NCBI RefSeq assembly: GCF_014208035.1
Contig: NZ_JACHMK010000001.1
Span: forward strand, 1,178,001 to 1,242,000
Length of the DNA: 64,000 bases
Source of the DNA: Schaalia hyovaginalis
GTDB lineage: Bacteria > Actinomycetota > Actinomycetes > Actinomycetales > Actinomycetaceae
Direction: 5' to 3'
Part shown: piece by piece, positions 3,351 through 51,876 of the stretch
How positions within the stretch are numbered: the stretch's first letter is position 1
Layout: the number at the start of each line of letters is the position of its first letter
The notes under the pieces: model-generated
Databases searched by the model: none
Seen by the model: the letters and a program-made list of their open reading frames with translations, nothing else
What the model was told of the DNA's origin: nothing
Made by a program: the position numbers and the translations under genes

Positions 3351-4276
3351 AACCGCCCGCCCCCCGACGTCCCGGCACCTCGCCCTCGGGGCCCGAGCGC
3401 CCCGGATCGCGAGAGCCGGGGGCGCAGCACTCGAAGCCCGCGGGCCCCGCCGCCGAATCGGCGAAGCCGACCCGGGCCGCGTCGCCGAAGGATCTCGCCC
3501 GGCCGATCGGGCAGGCGGATGCCGCGGCCGTGCTCGGCCCCGTCGCGGAGCCGACGGACTTCCTCAAGCGGCGAGAGGAGAGGCGGCGCGCGAAGCGCTC
3601 CTACTTCCTCAAGACGGCGCTGATCGCTCTTGCGGGCGCGGTGATGGTCGCCGGGCTGGCGTGGGTGCTCCTCTTCTCCTCGCTCTTCGCCCTGGATCCG
3701 GGGCATGTCACCGTCGAAGGGGCTCAGTCGGGATTGATCTCCGAGGAGGAGGTGAGGGCCGCGGCCGCCCCCTATGAGGGGACCCCCCTCCCCAGGGTCC
3801 CGACCGGGGGGATCGCGTCCGAGATCGCCAAGCTTCCCCCGGTTTCGGCCGTCGAGGTGAATCGGCGCTGGCCGACAGGCCTCGATATCGCGCTGGTTCT
3901 GCGCGAGCCGGCGATGATCGAGGGGGCCGAGGGCGCCTATCGGCTCGTCGACTCGGGCGGCGTGTCCTTCGCGCCGGCCGAGCCTGTGCCCGAGGGGCTG
4001 CCCTACGTCGTCCTCCCCGAGGGGGACAAGCGCCAGGACGCGGCCGAGGACGTCCTCGCGGTGTGGGCGGCGTGCTCCGATTCCCTCAAGGCGCGCATCG
4101 GGTGGGTGAGCGCCGACGGCCTGACCGTGTCCTTCACGATCGACACCGGAGCGACGGTCAAATGGGGGACGGTTGACGATTCCGCCCTGAAGGCCCGCGT
4201 GGTCGAGGTCCTCATCGCTCAACGGGGCGCGTCGGTCTACGACGTGTCGGCGCCGGCCCATCCGGTCACCGTGTAG
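3347..4276 (+). CDS. ftsQ: Cell division protein FtsQ/DivIB
   Basis: Bitopic divisome protein. About 309 residues: a long Pro/Ala/Arg-rich cytoplasmic N-terminus (residues 1-85), one membrane span starting LIALAGAVMVAGLAWVLLFS, a POTRA segment (DPGHVTVEGAQ...) and the FtsQ domain with the P-x-V-x-x-V-x-V-x-R-x-W-P pattern (PPVSAVEVNRRWP). GTG at 3347 is chosen because it overlaps the murC stop as GTGA and begins the conserved Lys-Pro-Pro stretch; ATG 3323 lies inside murC. Followed by a promoter-bearing gap and ftsZ. Confidence 0.92.
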   Translation: MKPPAPRRPGTSPSGPERPGSREPGAQHSKPAGPAAESAKPTRAASPKDLARPIGQADAAAVLGPVAEPTDFLKRREERRRAKRSYFLKTALIALAGAVMVAGLAWVLLFSSLFALDPGHVTVEGAQSGLISEEEVRAAAAPYEGTPLPRVPTGGIASEIAKLPPVSAVEVNRRWPTGLDIALVLREPAMIEGAEGAYRLVDSGGVSFAPAEPVPEGLPYVVLPEGDKRQDAAEDVLAVWAACSDSLKARIGWVSADGLTVSFTIDTGATVKWGTVDDSALKARVVEVLIAQRGASVYDVSAPAHPVTV

Positions 4277-4408: not shown

Positions 4409-5659
4409 ATGGCGGCACCGCAGAACCACCTCGCAGTGATCAAGGTCGTCGGCGTCGGCGGCGGCGGTGTCAACGCCGTGAACCGCATGATCGAAGTCGG
4501 TCTCAAGGGAGTCGAGTTCATCGCGGTGAACACCGATGCGCAGGCCCTCCTCATGTCGGACGCGGAGACGAAGCTCGACATCGGGCGCGATCTCACGCAC
4601 GGCCTCGGCGCGGGCGCGGATCCGAACGTCGGCCGCAAGGCAGCGGAGGACCACATCGACGAGATCACCGAGTCCCTCGAGGGCGCCGACATGGTCTTCG
4701 TGACCGCCGGCGAAGGCGGCGGTACGGGCACCGGCGCGGCTCCGGTCGTGGCGAAGATCGCCCGCGAAGCCGGGGCTCTCACGGTCGGCGTCGTCACCCG
4801 CCCCTTCTCCTTCGAGGGCAACCGAAGGGCCGCCCAGGCCGAGACCGGCGTCGAAACCCTCCGCGACGAGGTCGATACCCTGATCGTCATCCCGAACGAC
4901 CGCCTGCTCGAGATCTCCGACACGAACATCTCGGTTCTCGAGGCCTTCCGCGCAGCCGATCAGGTCCTCCTCTCGGGCGTTCAGGGCATCACCGAGCTCA
5001 TCACGACGCCGGGCCTCATCAACGTCGACTTCAACGACGTGAAGTCCGTGATGAAGGACGCCGGATCGGCGCTCATGGGCATCGGCGCGGCCACGGGCGA
5101 GGATCGCGCTCTTCGCGCCGTCGAGACCGCGATCTCCTCCCCGCTCCTCGAGGCCTCGATCGACGGCGCGCACGGCGTGCTCATGTTCTTCCAGGGCGGT
5201 TCGAACCTCGGCCTCCAGGAGATCTTCCAGTCCTCGCAGCTCGTGCGCGAAGCGGCCCACCCGGAGGCGAACATCATCTTCGGCAATGTCATTGACGACG
5301 CCCTCGGCGACGAGATCCGCGTGACGATCATCGCCGCCGGCTTCGACGAGCCGACCGACCGCGCCATCGCGGGGATCACCCCCGCGGCCTCGGCGCCCGC
5401 CGCCCAGACCCCGAAGACCGTTCAGGCTCCGGCTCCGGCCGCCCCCGCGCCGGCCGCCACTCGCCGTCCCCTCGGAGAGGTCCCGAAGGCCCAGCACAGG
5501 GCGGTCGTGGATGTCCCCACCCGCACGGGCGCGATCCCGGTCGCAACGCGCCGCGTCGAAGAGCCCGTGCGCGAGGAGGACCAATCGCTCGAGGTCCCCA
5601 GGATCTTCGACGAGGACGAACAGGCCTCCGACCTCGACATCCCCGACTTCCTGCGCTGA
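4409..5659 (+). CDS. ftsZ: Cell division protein FtsZ
   Basis: Tubulin-like GTPase forming the Z-ring. Contains [16 protein letters not shown], the tubulin signature [11 protein letters not shown] and the T7 loop region [11 protein letters not shown], followed by a Pro/Ala-rich linker and the C-terminal peptide DLDIPDFLR, which is the FtsZ tail that contacts SepF/FtsW in actinobacteria. ATG 4409 is chosen over the in-frame 4304 because AAGGGAG precedes it at correct distance and the protein then starts [13 protein letters not shown]. 416 residues. Confidence 0.98.
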
Positions 5660-9610: not shown

Positions 9611-9797
9611 CCTCCCCTTCGAACAGGACTGCCGGGGACGAGGGCGCGACCTCATCGGCGATGCGGGGGCGCCTCGCCGATGCGCGTGCGAGCGCACGAC
9701 AGGCCTAAGACCCGTACGGGCGCACGAGGGGCGCTAAGGGGAGCGCGTCAGGATCCCCGGTCCTCGAGGTGAAGGTGCTTGAGCGCCCGGTCGCCAC

Positions 9798-9803
9798 TAG
9801 GAT
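9798..9803 (+). promoter_or_regulatory. -10 box (TAGGAT) of a probable leaderless dnaE transcript
   Basis: TAGGAT is separated from ATG 9811 by 7 bases, so transcription would start at or next to the A of the start codon. No ribosome binding site precedes this ATG. Confidence 0.5.
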
Positions 9804-9810
9804 CGGGGGC

Positions 9811-12800
9811 ATGGCGACCGACTCCTTCGTGCATCTTCACAATCACTCCGAGTACTCGATGCTCGACGGGGCGGCGAAGACGAAGGCGATGGCGGAAGAA
9901 GCCGCGCGGCTCGGCCAGCCGGCCATCGGCCTCACCGACCACGGCTACCTCTTCGGCGCCTTCGACTTCTACCAGAACTGCGTGAAGGCCGGGGTCAAGC
10001 CGATCATCGGCCTTGAAGCCTATGTGACGCCGGGGACTTCGCGCTTCGACCGCCAGAAAGTCACCTGGGGCGAGCCGTGGCAGCGCTCGGACGACGTGTC
10101 GGCCGGAGGCTCCTACAACCACCTCACCCTCATCGCCTATTCGACCGAGGGCATGCACAACCTCTTCCGCCTCGGCTCATACGCCTCGACGGACGGTCAA
10201 TTCGGCAAGTGGCCGCGCGCCGACAAGGAACTCCTCGCGAGGTTCCACAAGGGCCTCATCGTCTTCACCGGCTGCCCCTCGGGCGCCGTCCAGACGCGCC
10301 TGCGCCTCGGGCAATGGGACGAGGCGGTGCGCGAGGCCGCCGAGCTGCGCGACATCTTCGGCCCTGAGAACTTCTACGTCGAGATCATGGATCACGGCAT
10401 CGAGTTCGAGCGCCGCACCCAGAAACAGCTCCTCGAACTGGCCGAGCTCATGGACGCGCCGCTCGTGGCGACCAACGACGCGCACTACGTCCACAAAGAC
10501 GACCGGAAGATCCAGGACGCCCTGCTCTGCATCAACTCGGGCTCGCGCATCTCCGATCCGGACCGCTTCAAGTTCGACGGCGACGGCTACTACATCCGCC
10601 CGAGCGAGGAGATGCGTTCGATCTGGTCCGAGCTCCCGCAGGCCTGCGACTCGACCCTCGAGATCGCCGAGCGCTGCGAAGTGCACTTCACGACGACCGC
10701 AGAGGGCGCGAACTACATGCCCGACTTCCCCGTCCCCGAGGGCGAGGACAAGACCTCCTGGTTCATCAAGGAGGTGGAGCGTGGCCTCAACTACCGCTTC
10801 CCGAACGGGATCCCCGACGATGTGCGCAAGCAGGCCGAATACGAGGAGGACGTCATCATCTCGATGGGCTTCCCCGGGTACTTCCTCACCGTCGCCGACT
10901 ACATCCAGTGGGCGAAGGAGCAGGGCATCCGGGTGGGGCCGGGCCGAGGATCCGGCGCCGGGTCGATGGTCGCTTACGCGATGCGCATCACCGAACTCAA
11001 CCCGCTCGAGCACGGCCTCATCTTCGAGCGCTTCCTCAACCCCGAGCGCATCTCGATGCCCGACTTCGACGTCGACTTCGACGAGCGCAGGCGCGACGAA
11101 GTGATCGCCTACGTCAAACGGAAGTACGGCGAGGACCGCATCTCCCAGGTCGTCACCTACGGCACGATCAAGACGAAGCAGGCCCTCAAGGACTCGGCCC
11201 GCATCCTGGGCAAGGACTTCAAAGTCGGCGAGCAGCTGACGAAGGCCCTGCCGCCCGGCGTCCAGGGCAAGGACATCCCGGTCCACGGCATCTTCGACAA
11301 GGAGCATCCGCGCTATGCGGAGGCCGCGGAGTTCCGCAAGTACTACGAGGACAACCCCGACACCCATGAGGTCGTCCAGTACGCCCTCGGCCTCGAGGGG
11401 CTGACGCGGCAGTGGGGCGTCCACGCCTGCGCGGTCATCATGTCGAGTCACACGCTCACCGACATCATCCCGATCATGAAACGCCCCCAGGACGGCGCGA
11501 TCATCACGCAGTTCGACTACCCGACCTGCGAGACGCTCGGCCTGCTCAAGATGGACTTCCTCGGGCTGCGCAACCTCACGGTCCTGTCCGATGCGCTCGA
11601 GAACATCACCCTCAACGGCAAGTCGGACCCCGATCTCGAGCACCTGGCCTTCGATGACAGGCTGACCTACGAGCTGCTGTCGCGCGGCGATACCCTCGGC
11701 GTCTTCCAGCTCGATGGCGGCGGCATGCGCGATCTCCTCAAGCTCATGAAGCCCGACAACTTCGAGGACATCTCCGCCGTCGGCGCCCTGTACCGTCCCG
11801 GCCCCATGGGCGCGAATTCGCACACGAACTACGCGCTGCGCAAGAACGGGCGCCAGGAGATCACCCCGATCCATCCCGAGCTCGCCGAGCCCCTCGAATC
11901 GATCCTCGGCACGACCTACGGCCTGATCGTGTATCAGGAGCAGGTCATGCAGATCGCGCAGAAGCTCGCAGGCTACACGCTCGGCCAGGCGGACATCCTC
12001 CGCAAGGCGATGGGCAAGAAGAAGCCAGAGGTGCTCGCCAAGCAGTTCGAGGGCTTCCAGGCGGGCATGCTGAAGAACGGCTACTCGAAGGAGTCGATCC
12101 AGGCCCTGTGGGATGTCGTCGTCCCCTTCTCCGCCTACGCCTTCAACAAGGCGCACTCGGCGGCCTACGGCCTGGTGTCCTACTGGACGGCCTTCCTCAA
12201 GGCGAACTTCCCGACGGAGTACATGGCGGCCCTTCTCACTTCGACGAAGGACAACAAGGACAAGCGCGCCCTCTACCTGGCTGAGGCCCGGCACATGGAC
12301 ATCACGGTCCTTCCCCCCGATGTCAACGCCTCGCGCGGCAATTTCGCCCCTGATGGCGAGCGGATCCGCTTCGGCTTGAACTCGATTCAGAACGTGGGGG
12401 CGAACGTCGTCGACGCGATCGTGCAGACCCGCGAGGCCAAGGGGAAGTTCTCGAGCTTTCAGGACTTCCTCGACAAGGTCCCGCAGGTGGTGTGCAACAA
12501 GAGGACGATCCAGTCGCTCATACGCGCCGGCGCTTTCGATTCGCTCGGCTACACCCGACGCGCCCTGCTGGCCCGCTGCGATGAAGCGGTCGATGCGATC
12601 ATCGATGTCAAGCGCAATGAGGCCGTCGGCCAGTTCGATCTTTTCGGCGCGCTCGGCGGGCAGGACGAGTCGAGCGAATCGTCCTTGGCGATCGATATCC
12701 CCGACATCCCGGAGTTCGACCGCAAGTCGAAGCTCGCCCAGGAGCGCGAGATGCTGGGCCTGTACGTGTCGGATCATCCCCTGCGCGGCCTCGAGGGCGG

Positions 12801-13359
12801 GCTCGCGCGGTACCAGGATGTGGAGATCGCCCAGGTCGTCGGCTCCGAGGATTCGATGGCGGATCGCGTCGTGAAGATCGCGGGCCTCGTCTCGGGCGTG
12901 CAGACGAAGGTGACGAAGCAGGGGTCCGTGTGGGCGATTGCGACGATCGAGGACCTGTCGGGTTCGGTCGAGGTGCTCTTCTTCCCGCGCGCCTATGAGA
13001 CGATCCAGACGCACCTGGTCCAGGACGTCATCGTCCAGGTCGAGGGGCGGGTGAATGTCCGCGATGAGGGCATGTCGATCTACGGGCAGTCCTTGACGCT
13101 GCTCGATCTGCGCGAGGACGGGGATTCTCCGCTCGATCTGGAGCTTCCGGTCTCGCGCTGCACGCCCGAGCTGCTTCTCGAGCTCCGCGATGTCCTCCAA
13201 TCCTTCCCGGGCGGATCGCCGGTGCGTCTGCACGTCCGGGAGCCCGGTAGGACCACGATCGTCGAGCTGGATCCGAAGCTGCGCGTCGAGCAGTCGAGCG
13301 CCTTCTTCTCGCAGGTGAAGGCGGTCGTCGGCATCTCCGGGGTCCTCACCTCCCACTAG
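9811..13359 (+). CDS. dnaE: DNA polymerase III alpha subunit DnaE1
   Basis: Replicative polymerase catalytic subunit. N-terminal PHP domain (HLHNHSEYSMLDGAAK, ITDHG-like), polymerase palm with PDFDVDFDERRRDEVI carrying the catalytic Asp residues and GPGRGSGAGSM, then helix-hairpin-helix (QNVGANVVDAIV) and an OB domain near residues 1010-1090. 1182 residues, normal for DnaE1. ATG 9811 is preferred over GTG 9769 because it fits both the family N-terminus (MATDSFVHLHNHSEYS) and the -10 box. Confidence 0.97.
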   Translation: MATDSFVHLHNHSEYSMLDGAAKTKAMAEEAARLGQPAIGLTDHGYLFGAFDFYQNCVKAGVKPIIGLEAYVTPGTSRFDRQKVTWGEPWQRSDDVSAGGSYNHLTLIAYSTEGMHNLFRLGSYASTDGQFGKWPRADKELLARFHKGLIVFTGCPSGAVQTRLRLGQWDEAVREAAELRDIFGPENFYVEIMDHGIEFERRTQKQLLELAELMDAPLVATNDAHYVHKDDRKIQDALLCINSGSRISDPDRFKFDGDGYYIRPSEEMRSIWSELPQACDSTLEIAERCEVHFTTTAEGANYMPDFPVPEGEDKTSWFIKEVERGLNYRFPNGIPDDVRKQAEYEEDVIISMGFPGYFLTVADYIQWAKEQGIRVGPGRGSGAGSMVAYAMRITELNPLEHGLIFERFLNPERISMPDFDVDFDERRRDEVIAYVKRKYGEDRISQVVTYGTIKTKQALKDSARILGKDFKVGEQLTKALPPGVQGKDIPVHGIFDKEHPRYAEAAEFRKYYEDNPDTHEVVQYALGLEGLTRQWGVHACAVIMSSHTLTDIIPIMKRPQDGAIITQFDYPTCETLGLLKMDFLGLRNLTVLSDALENITLNGKSDPDLEHLAFDDRLTYELLSRGDTLGVFQLDGGGMRDLLKLMKPDNFEDISAVGALYRPGPMGANSHTNYALRKNGRQEITPIHPELAEPLESILGTTYGLIVYQEQVMQIAQKLAGYTLGQADILRKAMGKKKPEVLAKQFEGFQAGMLKNGYSKESIQALWDVVVPFSAYAFNKAHSAAYGLVSYWTAFLKANFPTEYMAALLTSTKDNKDKRALYLAEARHMDITVLPPDVNASRGNFAPDGERIRFGLNSIQNVGANVVDAIVQTREAKGKFSSFQDFLDKVPQVVCNKRTIQSLIRAGAFDSLGYTRRALLARCDEAVDAIIDVKRNEAVGQFDLFGALGGQDESSESSLAIDIPDIPEFDRKSKLAQEREMLGLYVSDHPLRGLEGGLARYQDVEIAQVVGSEDSMADRVVKIAGLVSGVQTKVTKQGSVWAIATIEDLSGSVEVLFFPRAYETIQTHLVQDVIVQVEGRVNVRDEGMSIYGQSLTLLDLREDGDSPLDLELPVSRCTPELLLELRDVLQSFPGGSPVRLHVREPGRTTIVELDPKLRVEQSSAFFSQVKAVVGISGVLTSH

Positions 13360-13360
13360 C

Positions 13361-13419
13361 CGAGGTCATCACCTTTCTCCGCCGAGGTCATCACCTTTCG
13401 GCATCGAGAGGATCTCTTG
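13361..13419 (+). repeat. Triple 22-bp repeat, copy 1 (after dnaE)
   Basis: Three units start at 13361, 13383 and 13405, exactly 22 bp apart. Units 1 and 2 share CGAGGTCATCACCTTTC; unit 3 starts CGAGAGGATCTC and folds as CGAGAG-GAT-CTCTTG. It begins one base after the dnaE stop. The same arrangement recurs, inverted, at 14570-14635 and, in direct orientation, at 51817-51876. Confidence 0.85.
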
Positions 13420-13447
13420 CCGGGCGAGGCGATGACCGGCAGGAGAT

Positions 13448-14464
13448 TCAACGGAACCTTGCGCGCTCAGCCGGGGTCCACAGCGCCGCCCGCCCGTGCA
13501 GGTCGCGCTGCTCCGGAAAACTCTCGTCGAGCAGCTTGAGCATCTGCGGCACATCCGCAGTGGCCGAGGCGTCGACGTCACGAACCGTGAATCCGACCTC
13601 CGCGAGATCCACGCGACGAGCCGCTTCCTTCTCCCTTTGAAGTCTTCCGGCCCCGCCCTCGTACTTGATCGCGCCATTGATCTCGATGCCGCGCCGCACT
13701 CCCGGGATCCCCAGATCGACCCAGCGCACGCCGACGCGCGTTCGGACTTCAACTTGGGGTTCGATCCGCGAATAACCCGCCGCGAGGGCGATCCTGCGCA
13801 TCTCGCTTTCGAACGGGGATTCGGCGAGCGCAGTGGTGACTGCGAGCAGTTCCCGGGCCTGACGGTACCCCCGCTGTCCTCGGTGTTTCTCCAGGGAGCG
13901 GAGGATCCGGGTGAGGATGACGCGCGCCTTGCGCTCGAGTGACGGGCGGTCGTCGCGCCAATGGGGGCCGCGTTCTACCGCTATGGCGAGAAGCGAATCG
14001 AGGGCGATGAGCGCGTCGTCGGGTGCGAGGAATCGCGCGGCCAACTCCATGGTTTGAAGGAGATCGGTTGTGAGGATCCCGTCGATGATGATCAGCTGAT
14101 CCTCATCGAGTTCCATGCGGTGGTTGACGACGGGACGCCGGGCCAGGCGTTCTCGTCGCTCGCGAGGACTGAGGGCGAAGAAGGAAGGACCGGTGGTCTT
14201 CATCGGCTTGCGATGCCACGATGCGTGAATATGCGCTTGCCTCGGCGGATGTTTGAGTGACCCGCCGTGAAGGATCACGGCCGACTGCAGGACGGCGATC
14301 GCTTGAGTGCTCCGGCGGGCGACGTCGAGGAGTCTGGCTCGGTGGAGGCGTTCATCCTTCTCCCACCATTCCGCTTCCGCGGGAATGTCGAGGAATCGGC
14401 CTTTTCGGAAGCGCGTGGGGAACGGGGCTGCGTCGGTGGCGTTCGGCGTTGCGAGGAGGTCCAT
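13448..14464 (-). CDS. DUF559/Vsr-like nuclease-fold protein with AbiEi-like N-terminus
   Basis: 338-residue protein. The C-terminal 120 residues match the Vsr-like DUF559 pattern: SPFESEMRRIALAAGY, then RWVDLGIPGVRRGIEINGAIKYEG (Asp, Glu and Lys/Tyr in catalytic-like spacing), then LQREKEAARRVDLAEVGFTVRDVD. The N-terminal 200 residues resemble the helical AbiEi-type region that often accompanies this domain in actinobacteria. Start at 14464 (ATG) is preferred; a longer frame reaching 14905 runs across the S4 gene and is Arg/Pro noise. No obvious toxin partner is next to it. The gene is bracketed by inverted 22-bp triple repeats. Biochemical activity is not known. Confidence 0.7.
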   Translation of the reverse strand: MDLLATPNATDAAPFPTRFRKGRFLDIPAEAEWWEKDERLHRARLLDVARRSTQAIAVLQSAVILHGGSLKHPPRQAHIHASWHRKPMKTTGPSFFALSPRERRERLARRPVVNHRMELDEDQLIIIDGILTTDLLQTMELAARFLAPDDALIALDSLLAIAVERGPHWRDDRPSLERKARVILTRILRSLEKHRGQRGYRQARELLAVTTALAESPFESEMRRIALAAGYSRIEPQVEVRTRVGVRWVDLGIPGVRRGIEINGAIKYEGGAGRLQREKEAARRVDLAEVGFTVRDVDASATADVPQMLKLLDESFPEQRDLHGRAALWTPAERARFR

Positions 14465-14569
14465 GCGCCCAGACTGCCCTCCGAGAAGCGGAGCACCGGA
14501 TCGCCGGGCGCCGGCCTGTGCATTCGGCGCTCCGGCGGAAAGGGTGTGGATACCTGAGCTTGAGGGTTT

Positions 14570-14635
14570 TCCCGCCGACGGGATCCTCTCGGTGAAGAAA
14601 AGTGATGACCTCGAGGGAGAAAGGTGATGACCTCG
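14570..14635 (-). repeat. Triple 22-bp repeat, copy 2 (inverted, after the S4 gene)
   Basis: Read on the minus strand the units start at 14635, 14613 and 14591, again 22 bp apart. Unit 1 matches copy 1 for 20 bases, unit 2 has CGAGGTCATCACTTTTC, unit 3 starts CGAGAGGATCCC and is followed by a TCCCG-TCGG-CGGGA hairpin. It begins five bases after the S4-gene stop, in the same orientation relative to that gene as copy 1 to dnaE. Confidence 0.85.
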
Positions 14636-14640
14636 GTGGA

Positions 14641-14874
14641 TCAGTCGAGGCGGCGCACGCGGGCGGAGAAGCGCCCGGCGGGGGAGTCGACTTCCACGAG
14701 GTCCCCGTCGGCGAGCTGGCGCCCCCGCCTCGTCTCCACCTCCCCATTGACGAGGACGTCGCCGCCCTGAACGAGTTCGCGCGCGAGCGCCCCGTCCTCG
14801 GCGAGGTTCGCGAGCTTGAGGAACTGTCCGAGGCGGATGACGCCGCTGACCTCGACGACGGGTGCTTCGCTCAT
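14641..14874 (-). CDS. Small S4-domain RNA-binding protein
   Basis: 77 residues, almost wholly one S4 domain: VIRLGQFLKLANLAEDGALARELVQ... then VLVNGEVETRRGRQLADGDLVEV. Such YaaA/RlbA-like proteins bind RNA; the target here is unknown. Divergent from hisD, with about 100 bases between them. A frame on this strand spanning both this gene and the DUF559 gene is in a different register and is spurious. Confidence 0.85.
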   Translation of the reverse strand: MSEAPVVEVSGVIRLGQFLKLANLAEDGALARELVQGGDVLVNGEVETRRGRQLADGDLVEVDSPAGRFSARVRRLD

Positions 14875-51816: not shown

Positions 51817-51876
51817 CGAAGTCATCACCTTCAGCCGTCGAAAGCATCACCTTCGCTCGTCGAGGGGATCTCCCCG
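51817..51876 (+). repeat. Triple 22-bp repeat, copy 3 (after proB)
   Basis: Units start at 51817, 51839 and 51861, exactly 22 bp apart: CGAAGTCATCACCTTC, CGAAAGCATCACCTTC and CGAGGGGATCTCCCCG. The last folds as GGGG-ATCT-CCCC. It begins 16 bases after the proB stop in the same orientation as proB. It is a diverged copy of the repeats at 13361 and 14570. Confidence 0.75.

Follow-up and report, generated by a model that had tools for sequence, protein, structure and literature searches.

Inverted arrays of 22-bp repeats around a gene for a predicted AbiEi/MenT1-like and Vsr-like protein: a possible REP/RAYT-like partnership in Schaalia and Actinomyces

In the window (the whole 64-kb stretch of DNA that was analysed), a single gene lies between two copies of a tandem 22-bp repeat that face opposite ways. 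Do the gene and the repeats belong together, and what might the encoded protein do to them? The original prediction offered three readings: a non-autonomous cassette, a nuclease that acts on or maintains its own repeats as RAYT enzymes do, and chance insertion of the gene between pre-existing repeats. We found that the inverted copies around one gene are real, with slightly corrected boundaries (Table 1), and that the match, first put at about 50 bases, extends over 55 nt at 89% complementarity, with 1167 nt between the arms (blastn-short of flank against flank, E = 1e-13). Each arm consists of two full 22-bp units and, on the gene side, a degenerate third unit (CGAGAGGATC), and similar degenerate inner units also occur in other arrays of the same genome. 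The whole window contains 4 unit matches with at most three mismatches, against 0.08 expected from shuffles.

The arms occupy both ends of the interval between the stop codon of dnaE (13357-13359) and that of a convergent gene (14641-14643), so that the focal interval ends 4 bases short of the latter. We take this neighbour to be an S4-domain gene, following the original prediction. Only one intact ORF lies between the arms. As the original prediction had stated, no transposase was recognised by eye among the ORFs of at least 80 aa in the focal interval. In addition, no intron or intein was seen around the gene, and a plasmid search with dnaE gave distant matches only.

Table 1. Positions of the focal locus, its neighbours and a related array in the window.
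Feature	Position	Strand
Left array of two CGCCGAGGTCATCACCTTTCTC-type 22-bp units plus a degenerate one on the gene side	13360..13414	+
Focal gene (338 aa; Vsr-like nuclease domain predicted), stop codon at 13448-13450	13448..14464	-
Predicted nuclease domain, residues 214-320	13505..13825	-
Residues 43-211, AbiEi-like fold (from AbiEi residue 57 on), MenT1 tied	13832..14338	-
Right array, matching the left one in inverted orientation	14582..14636	-
Gene-less array of the same family elsewhere in the window; array also at the orthologous G004 site	51817..51872	+
dnaE, upstream neighbour	9769..13359	+
S4-domain gene, convergent neighbour	14641..14874	-

The structure comparison (VIA) indicated that the protein model combines an AbiEi/MenT1-like front part with a domain resembling Vsr and the homing endonuclease I-Bth0305I, which supports the Vsr-like fold proposed earlier. 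Both matches come from VIA; Foldseek alone gave no match at E ≤ 0.001 for the whole model or the front part. The sequence of the window protein matched nothing credible in the PDB and 0 Pfam families. The DUF559 label given to it at first thus lacks a Pfam match in this protein, but among 10 homologues one passes the DUF559 (PF04480) cut-off (L086, 22.7 against 20.6 bits) and two fall just below. Furthermore, PADLOC models of AbiEi match 8 of 17 family members. The putative catalytic residues E219, E221, D250, E261 and K267, which correspond to a Vsr-like or PD-(D/E)XK site, are invariant in 25 of 25 homologues. The AbiEi winged helix was not identified in the front part. The AbiEi match at first suggested a winged-helix DNA reader, but it lies mainly past AbiEi residue 57; the front part as a DNA reader is therefore now a guess.

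The repeat unit is dispersed throughout the genome that carries the window (G000), one of 35 genomes of the genus compared here. There were 36 matches to GAGGTCATCACNTTTC with at most one mismatch and 0 to the reversed pattern, and a wider pattern gave 50 matches in 23 clusters. The two ends of contig C1 overlap (about 1-25745 and 2600278-2626023; L032 and L048) by about 25.7 kb, a length inferred from the coordinates, with 15,222 identical bases seen. Since the assembly repeats both ends (site 8.7k is site 2609k), 2 of the 50 matches are double counts, and 48 matches at 22 distinct sites remain. We read 19 distinct sites and found inverted pairs at 7 and one-sided arrays at 12, with just a single unit at two of the one-sided sites; others, such as 353.5k, 513.7k, 1108.6k and 2402.3k, are known from the pattern searches with the G000 and G004 units. 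The inverted pairs enclose a gap of about 60 to about 220 bases, except the focal pair, which holds the gene. Within the arrays the units are spaced at 22 bp, and a variant unit (GAAAGCATCAC) is intermixed with the main one.

The search for related loci gave one relative, A. culturomici. At E ≤ 1e-5, 27 of the 35 genus genomes have some homologue, and a close homologue (E ≤ 1e-80) was found in six only, G000, G004, G034, G030, G013 and G014. The G004 gene occupies the same dnaE site as that of G000. For the remaining four, dnaE and hisD are absent from the gene flanks examined, with dnaE on another contig or 43 kb off. Each of the six close homologues is flanked on both sides by tandem 22-23-bp repeats or by unit pairs; the two flanks are inverted relative to each other, and several different sequences occur. 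Homologues turned up in 114 of 213 genomes when the family was searched with a profile built from 17 proteins.

We compared the two 700-base flanks of such loci with each other, scoring 29 of 30 loci, with L091 dropped at a contig end. Control genes, which were ORFs 220-450 aa long taken from 20 stretches in 11 genomes, were treated in the same way. The best inverted flank match reached E ≤ 1e-4 at 22 of the 29 loci, the focal gene included, and at 0 of 90 controls, whereas direct matches at this threshold occurred at 3 of 29 loci and 2 of 90 controls. At the looser threshold of E ≤ 0.01, inverted matches were found at 25 of 29 loci and 3 of 90 controls. One locus (L052) gave E = 0.095 although 22-bp arrays are present in both of its flanks. 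The 26 close-subfamily loci represent 10 groups of sites when sorted by the proteins encoded beside them. L103 is without arrays, and L084, at the same site, has them.

The picture is mixed among more distant members. For 23 distant loci of the genus (24 given, one dropped for want of an ORF), flank matches at E ≤ 1e-4 were inverted in 4 and direct in 11; for 25 loci from a search of the order (26 given, one dropped for a short flank), 8 were inverted and 7 direct. Among the 25 loci of the order search, 18 come from other families; 5 of the 18 are inverted, one of the five (L214) resting on a doubtful gene call. Some distant members (L104, L105, L208, L216, L217 and L061) carry other flanking repeats, in long direct copies on either side of the gene (up to E = 2e-61).

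The repeats that were counted genome-wide are largely genome-specific. Besides its 50 matches in G000, the G000 unit has 21 copies in G004, where the units are variants, and at most one in each of the 33 other genus genomes (6 in total). The G004 unit has 171 copies in G004 and 34 in G000; none of the 33 others has more than 3, close to the reversed-pattern background of up to 2. Similarly, there are 158 copies of the G034 unit in G034 and 1 in total across 24 others, 33 copies of the G061 unit in G061 and 0 in 24 others, and 414 copies of the G014-type unit in G014, 190 in G013, 7 in G030 and no more than 2 in any of the remaining 22 genomes. A distant paralogue within G000 itself (L078:1056-2751, C1 near 1118.9 kb) is flanked by GGYRACAAGTCSGA, a repeat different from the focal unit, with 20 copies in G000, partly in inverted pairs, and at most 2 in any of the 34 others. 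Thus, five units besides the focal one are each concentrated where the matching gene is found, in one genome or in a close pair. A replichore bias of the repeat strand was suspected in G014 and dropped, as minus-strand units are present in the same stretch.

In addition, repeat and protein co-vary. Across 25 loci (units on one flank only in 4 of them; L103 left out), unit identity was correlated with protein identity, both over all 300 pairs (r = 0.68) and over the 263 pairs at different sites (r = 0.57), species relatedness being uncorrected in both values. None of 5000 permutations reached the unit-protein correlation. The unit finder demanded [CT]GA[AG] at the unit start, so the shared CGAR start is partly imposed; TRF consensus units, with no imposed start, often show it too.

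Pieces of DNA with arrays are present at some orthologous sites and absent at others, and some are duplicated. The G000 array site L045 corresponds to a G004 interval without an array (L198), the G004 array site L193 corresponds to a G000 interval without one (L044), and the array site near 51.8k of the window is common to both genomes (L197). The aligned DNA of the two genomes is roughly 70-85% identical, and the element boundaries are not exact. One gene-less G000 element of 205 bp occurs at two places in opposite orientation (97% identity). Three G004 loci (L188:1795-3730, L189:1602-3510 and L190:2082-5120) each hold, between arrays, a cassette containing a DUF6318 gene and one more predicted ORF. 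The matched pieces of these cassettes are about 95% identical, one copy holds an insertion sequence, and their homology stops at differing points in or near the arrays. Large cassettes were also suspected at L192, L194 and L196 of G004, and naive ORF reading showed no clear cassette gene there. The non-autonomous cassette of the original prediction was therefore right in part, in that gene-less cassettes and cassettes with other genes do exist with the same kind of ends.

Ordinary host genes can be enclosed as well: in the dnaE-S4-hisD interval of G034 (L163), an inverted pair of arrays of G034's own unit surrounds the S4-domain gene. Elsewhere in the genus, dnaE appears to be followed closely by the S4 gene in several genomes, where reading by eye of the first 130 bases of the dnaE-S4 interval (loci of 30 of the 35 genomes) showed no such array. 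A 1278-bp insertion sequence in G004, presumably of the IS30 type, lies within a repeat unit and splits the array; it is identical at L191:3657-4934 and L190:3812-5089, and it may insert preferentially into the repeat units.

What kind of system do these observations resemble? The REP/RAYT system, as described in PMC3116915 and PMC3733652, consists of dispersed short repeats, often in inverted pairs, and one gene dedicated to them, which they flank; the type of repeat is linked to that of the gene, and gene-less copies are scattered. The present loci share the dispersal, the flanking of an enzyme gene by its own repeat, the linkage of types and the scattered gene-less copies. However, the enzyme models as AbiEi/MenT1-like plus Vsr-like, whereas RAYTs are HUH tyrosine transposases of the IS200/IS605 type, and the 22/23-bp repeats here form tandem arrays that are paired in inverted orientation, whereas REPs are single palindromes. 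Most of the related genes tested lie between their own, differing arrays; thus, the enzyme likely recognises its own repeats and would help to spread them. We judge the chances about even that the locus is a REP/RAYT-like pair of gene and repeat with a different class of enzyme, which would bind the units and assist in copying both these and the intervening DNA to other sites. Among the three readings first offered, a nuclease acting on its own repeats, or maintaining them, is accordingly the best fit, its action being a prediction from sequence. The original prediction had also considered that the repeats might be spread through the genome without a link to the gene family. They are spread, but the link holds, because most homologues lie between genome-specific arrays and the repeat type tracks the gene type.

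Other systems share single features with these loci. A Vsr-like catalytic fold with conserved acidic residues, as modelled here, is also that of I-Bth0305I, an EDxHD homing endonuclease. However, the proposed target is a dispersed, repeated array, whereas I-Bth0305I and free-standing homing endonucleases have one unique site; the AbiEi/MenT1-like front part and the lack of a visible intron or intein differ too. MITEs are likewise short elements with inverted ends and an enzyme presumed to act in trans, but the ends here are tandem arrays with fuzzy boundaries, with no target duplication read and no transposase identified.

In the reading that we prefer, that of a REP/RAYT-like pair, the front part of the protein would read the 22-bp unit, and the Vsr/I-Bth0305I-like domain would cut within or beside the array. 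The break might then be repaired from another array-bearing locus, so that the core between the arrays would be copied, with or without the nuclease gene. Gene-less pairs would be MITE-like or REPIN-like derivatives, and one-sided arrays would be decayed or partly converted pairs. The uneven ends of homology together with the shared cores would fit array cutting and repair better than precise transposition.

Among the alternatives, the arrays could be transposon ends moved in trans by a transposase with tandem binding sites, the nuclease gene being the commonest cargo or a helper. The ends of Mu and Tn7 carry tandem transposase binding sites of this kind. We consider this unlikely, if still a serious candidate: no transposase was recognised inside the focal element, the only one in the elements whose ORFs were read is the IS30-type element inside a G004 array, the repeat type tracks the nuclease gene, and the element ends are not sharp.

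It is also rather improbable that the arrays are operators through which an AbiEi-like protein represses its own and other genes, the nuclease part having another role such as defence. AbiEi-family proteins bind 23-bp repeats through a winged helix. AbiEi and Rv2827c regulate their own genes via 23-bp inverted repeats (PMC7319586), and the right focal array is upstream of the focal gene, about 120 bases from its start codon at 14464. However, the second array lies downstream of the stop codon, units number up to 414 per genome, cassettes and gene-less elements are duplicated and species differ at orthologous sites. Furthermore, the putative nuclease residues are invariant, and the winged helix of AbiEi and Rv2827c was not identified in the front part. 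The present family also differs from these two proteins in its added nuclease domain and genome-wide repeats, and no AbiEii (DUF1814) toxin gene was recognised, by reading, beside the focal gene, whose neighbours are dnaE and the S4-domain gene.

There is little likelihood that the protein is a nuclease for defence or self-protection, with the repeats as decoys, brakes or recognition marks spread as a by-product. The PADLOC matches and a nuclease fold common to restriction and repair enzymes agree with such a role, but no toxin or modification partner adjoining the focal gene was recognised by eye, and defence would not require inverted bracketing of the nuclease's own gene. Chance insertion between two pre-existing arrays is hardly credible and is refuted for the family: a dispersed unit does allow some gene to land between arrays, as the S4-domain gene of G034 exemplifies, but 22 of 29 homologues against 0 of 90 controls, in 10 groups of sites and with differing repeats, argue strongly against it.

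The REP/RAYT-like reading can be extended, tentatively and with rather less than even confidence, to the AbiEi-Vsr nucleases of Actinomycetales in general. These would read private 22/23-bp codes, seed hundreds of arrays by cutting and repair, carry host genes along and co-evolve in specificity with their repeats, as a non-transposase counterpart of REP/RAYT. Bacterial partnerships of enzyme and repeat are known chiefly for tyrosine transposases (PMC3116915). The titles and abstract openings returned by a literature search contained no link of AbiEi-like, Vsr-like or DUF559 genes to dispersed repeats and no description of these Actinomyces and Schaalia repeats. If the REP/RAYT-like reading is true, a large and mostly unnamed actinobacterial protein family would gain a function, and the presence of these repeats, which abound in the genomes of Actinomyces and Schaalia, would be explained. 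The matched protein and repeat of each genome would then form a natural series of DNA readers with evolving 22-bp specificities, in which gene-repeat co-evolution and repeat maintenance by an enzyme are directly testable.

Some minor observations concern the arrays and their surroundings. Immediately beyond the outer edges of the arrays there is often a C/T-rich tract (for example, L036:7826-7852, L040:7757-7775, L089:1204-1235 and L138:13660-13683), which may be a preferred target or a part of the element. In addition, the same four-unit array occurs twice at L138 of G014 (3363-3455 and 4949-5041), in direct orientation and 1586 bases apart, which suggests a duplicated segment.
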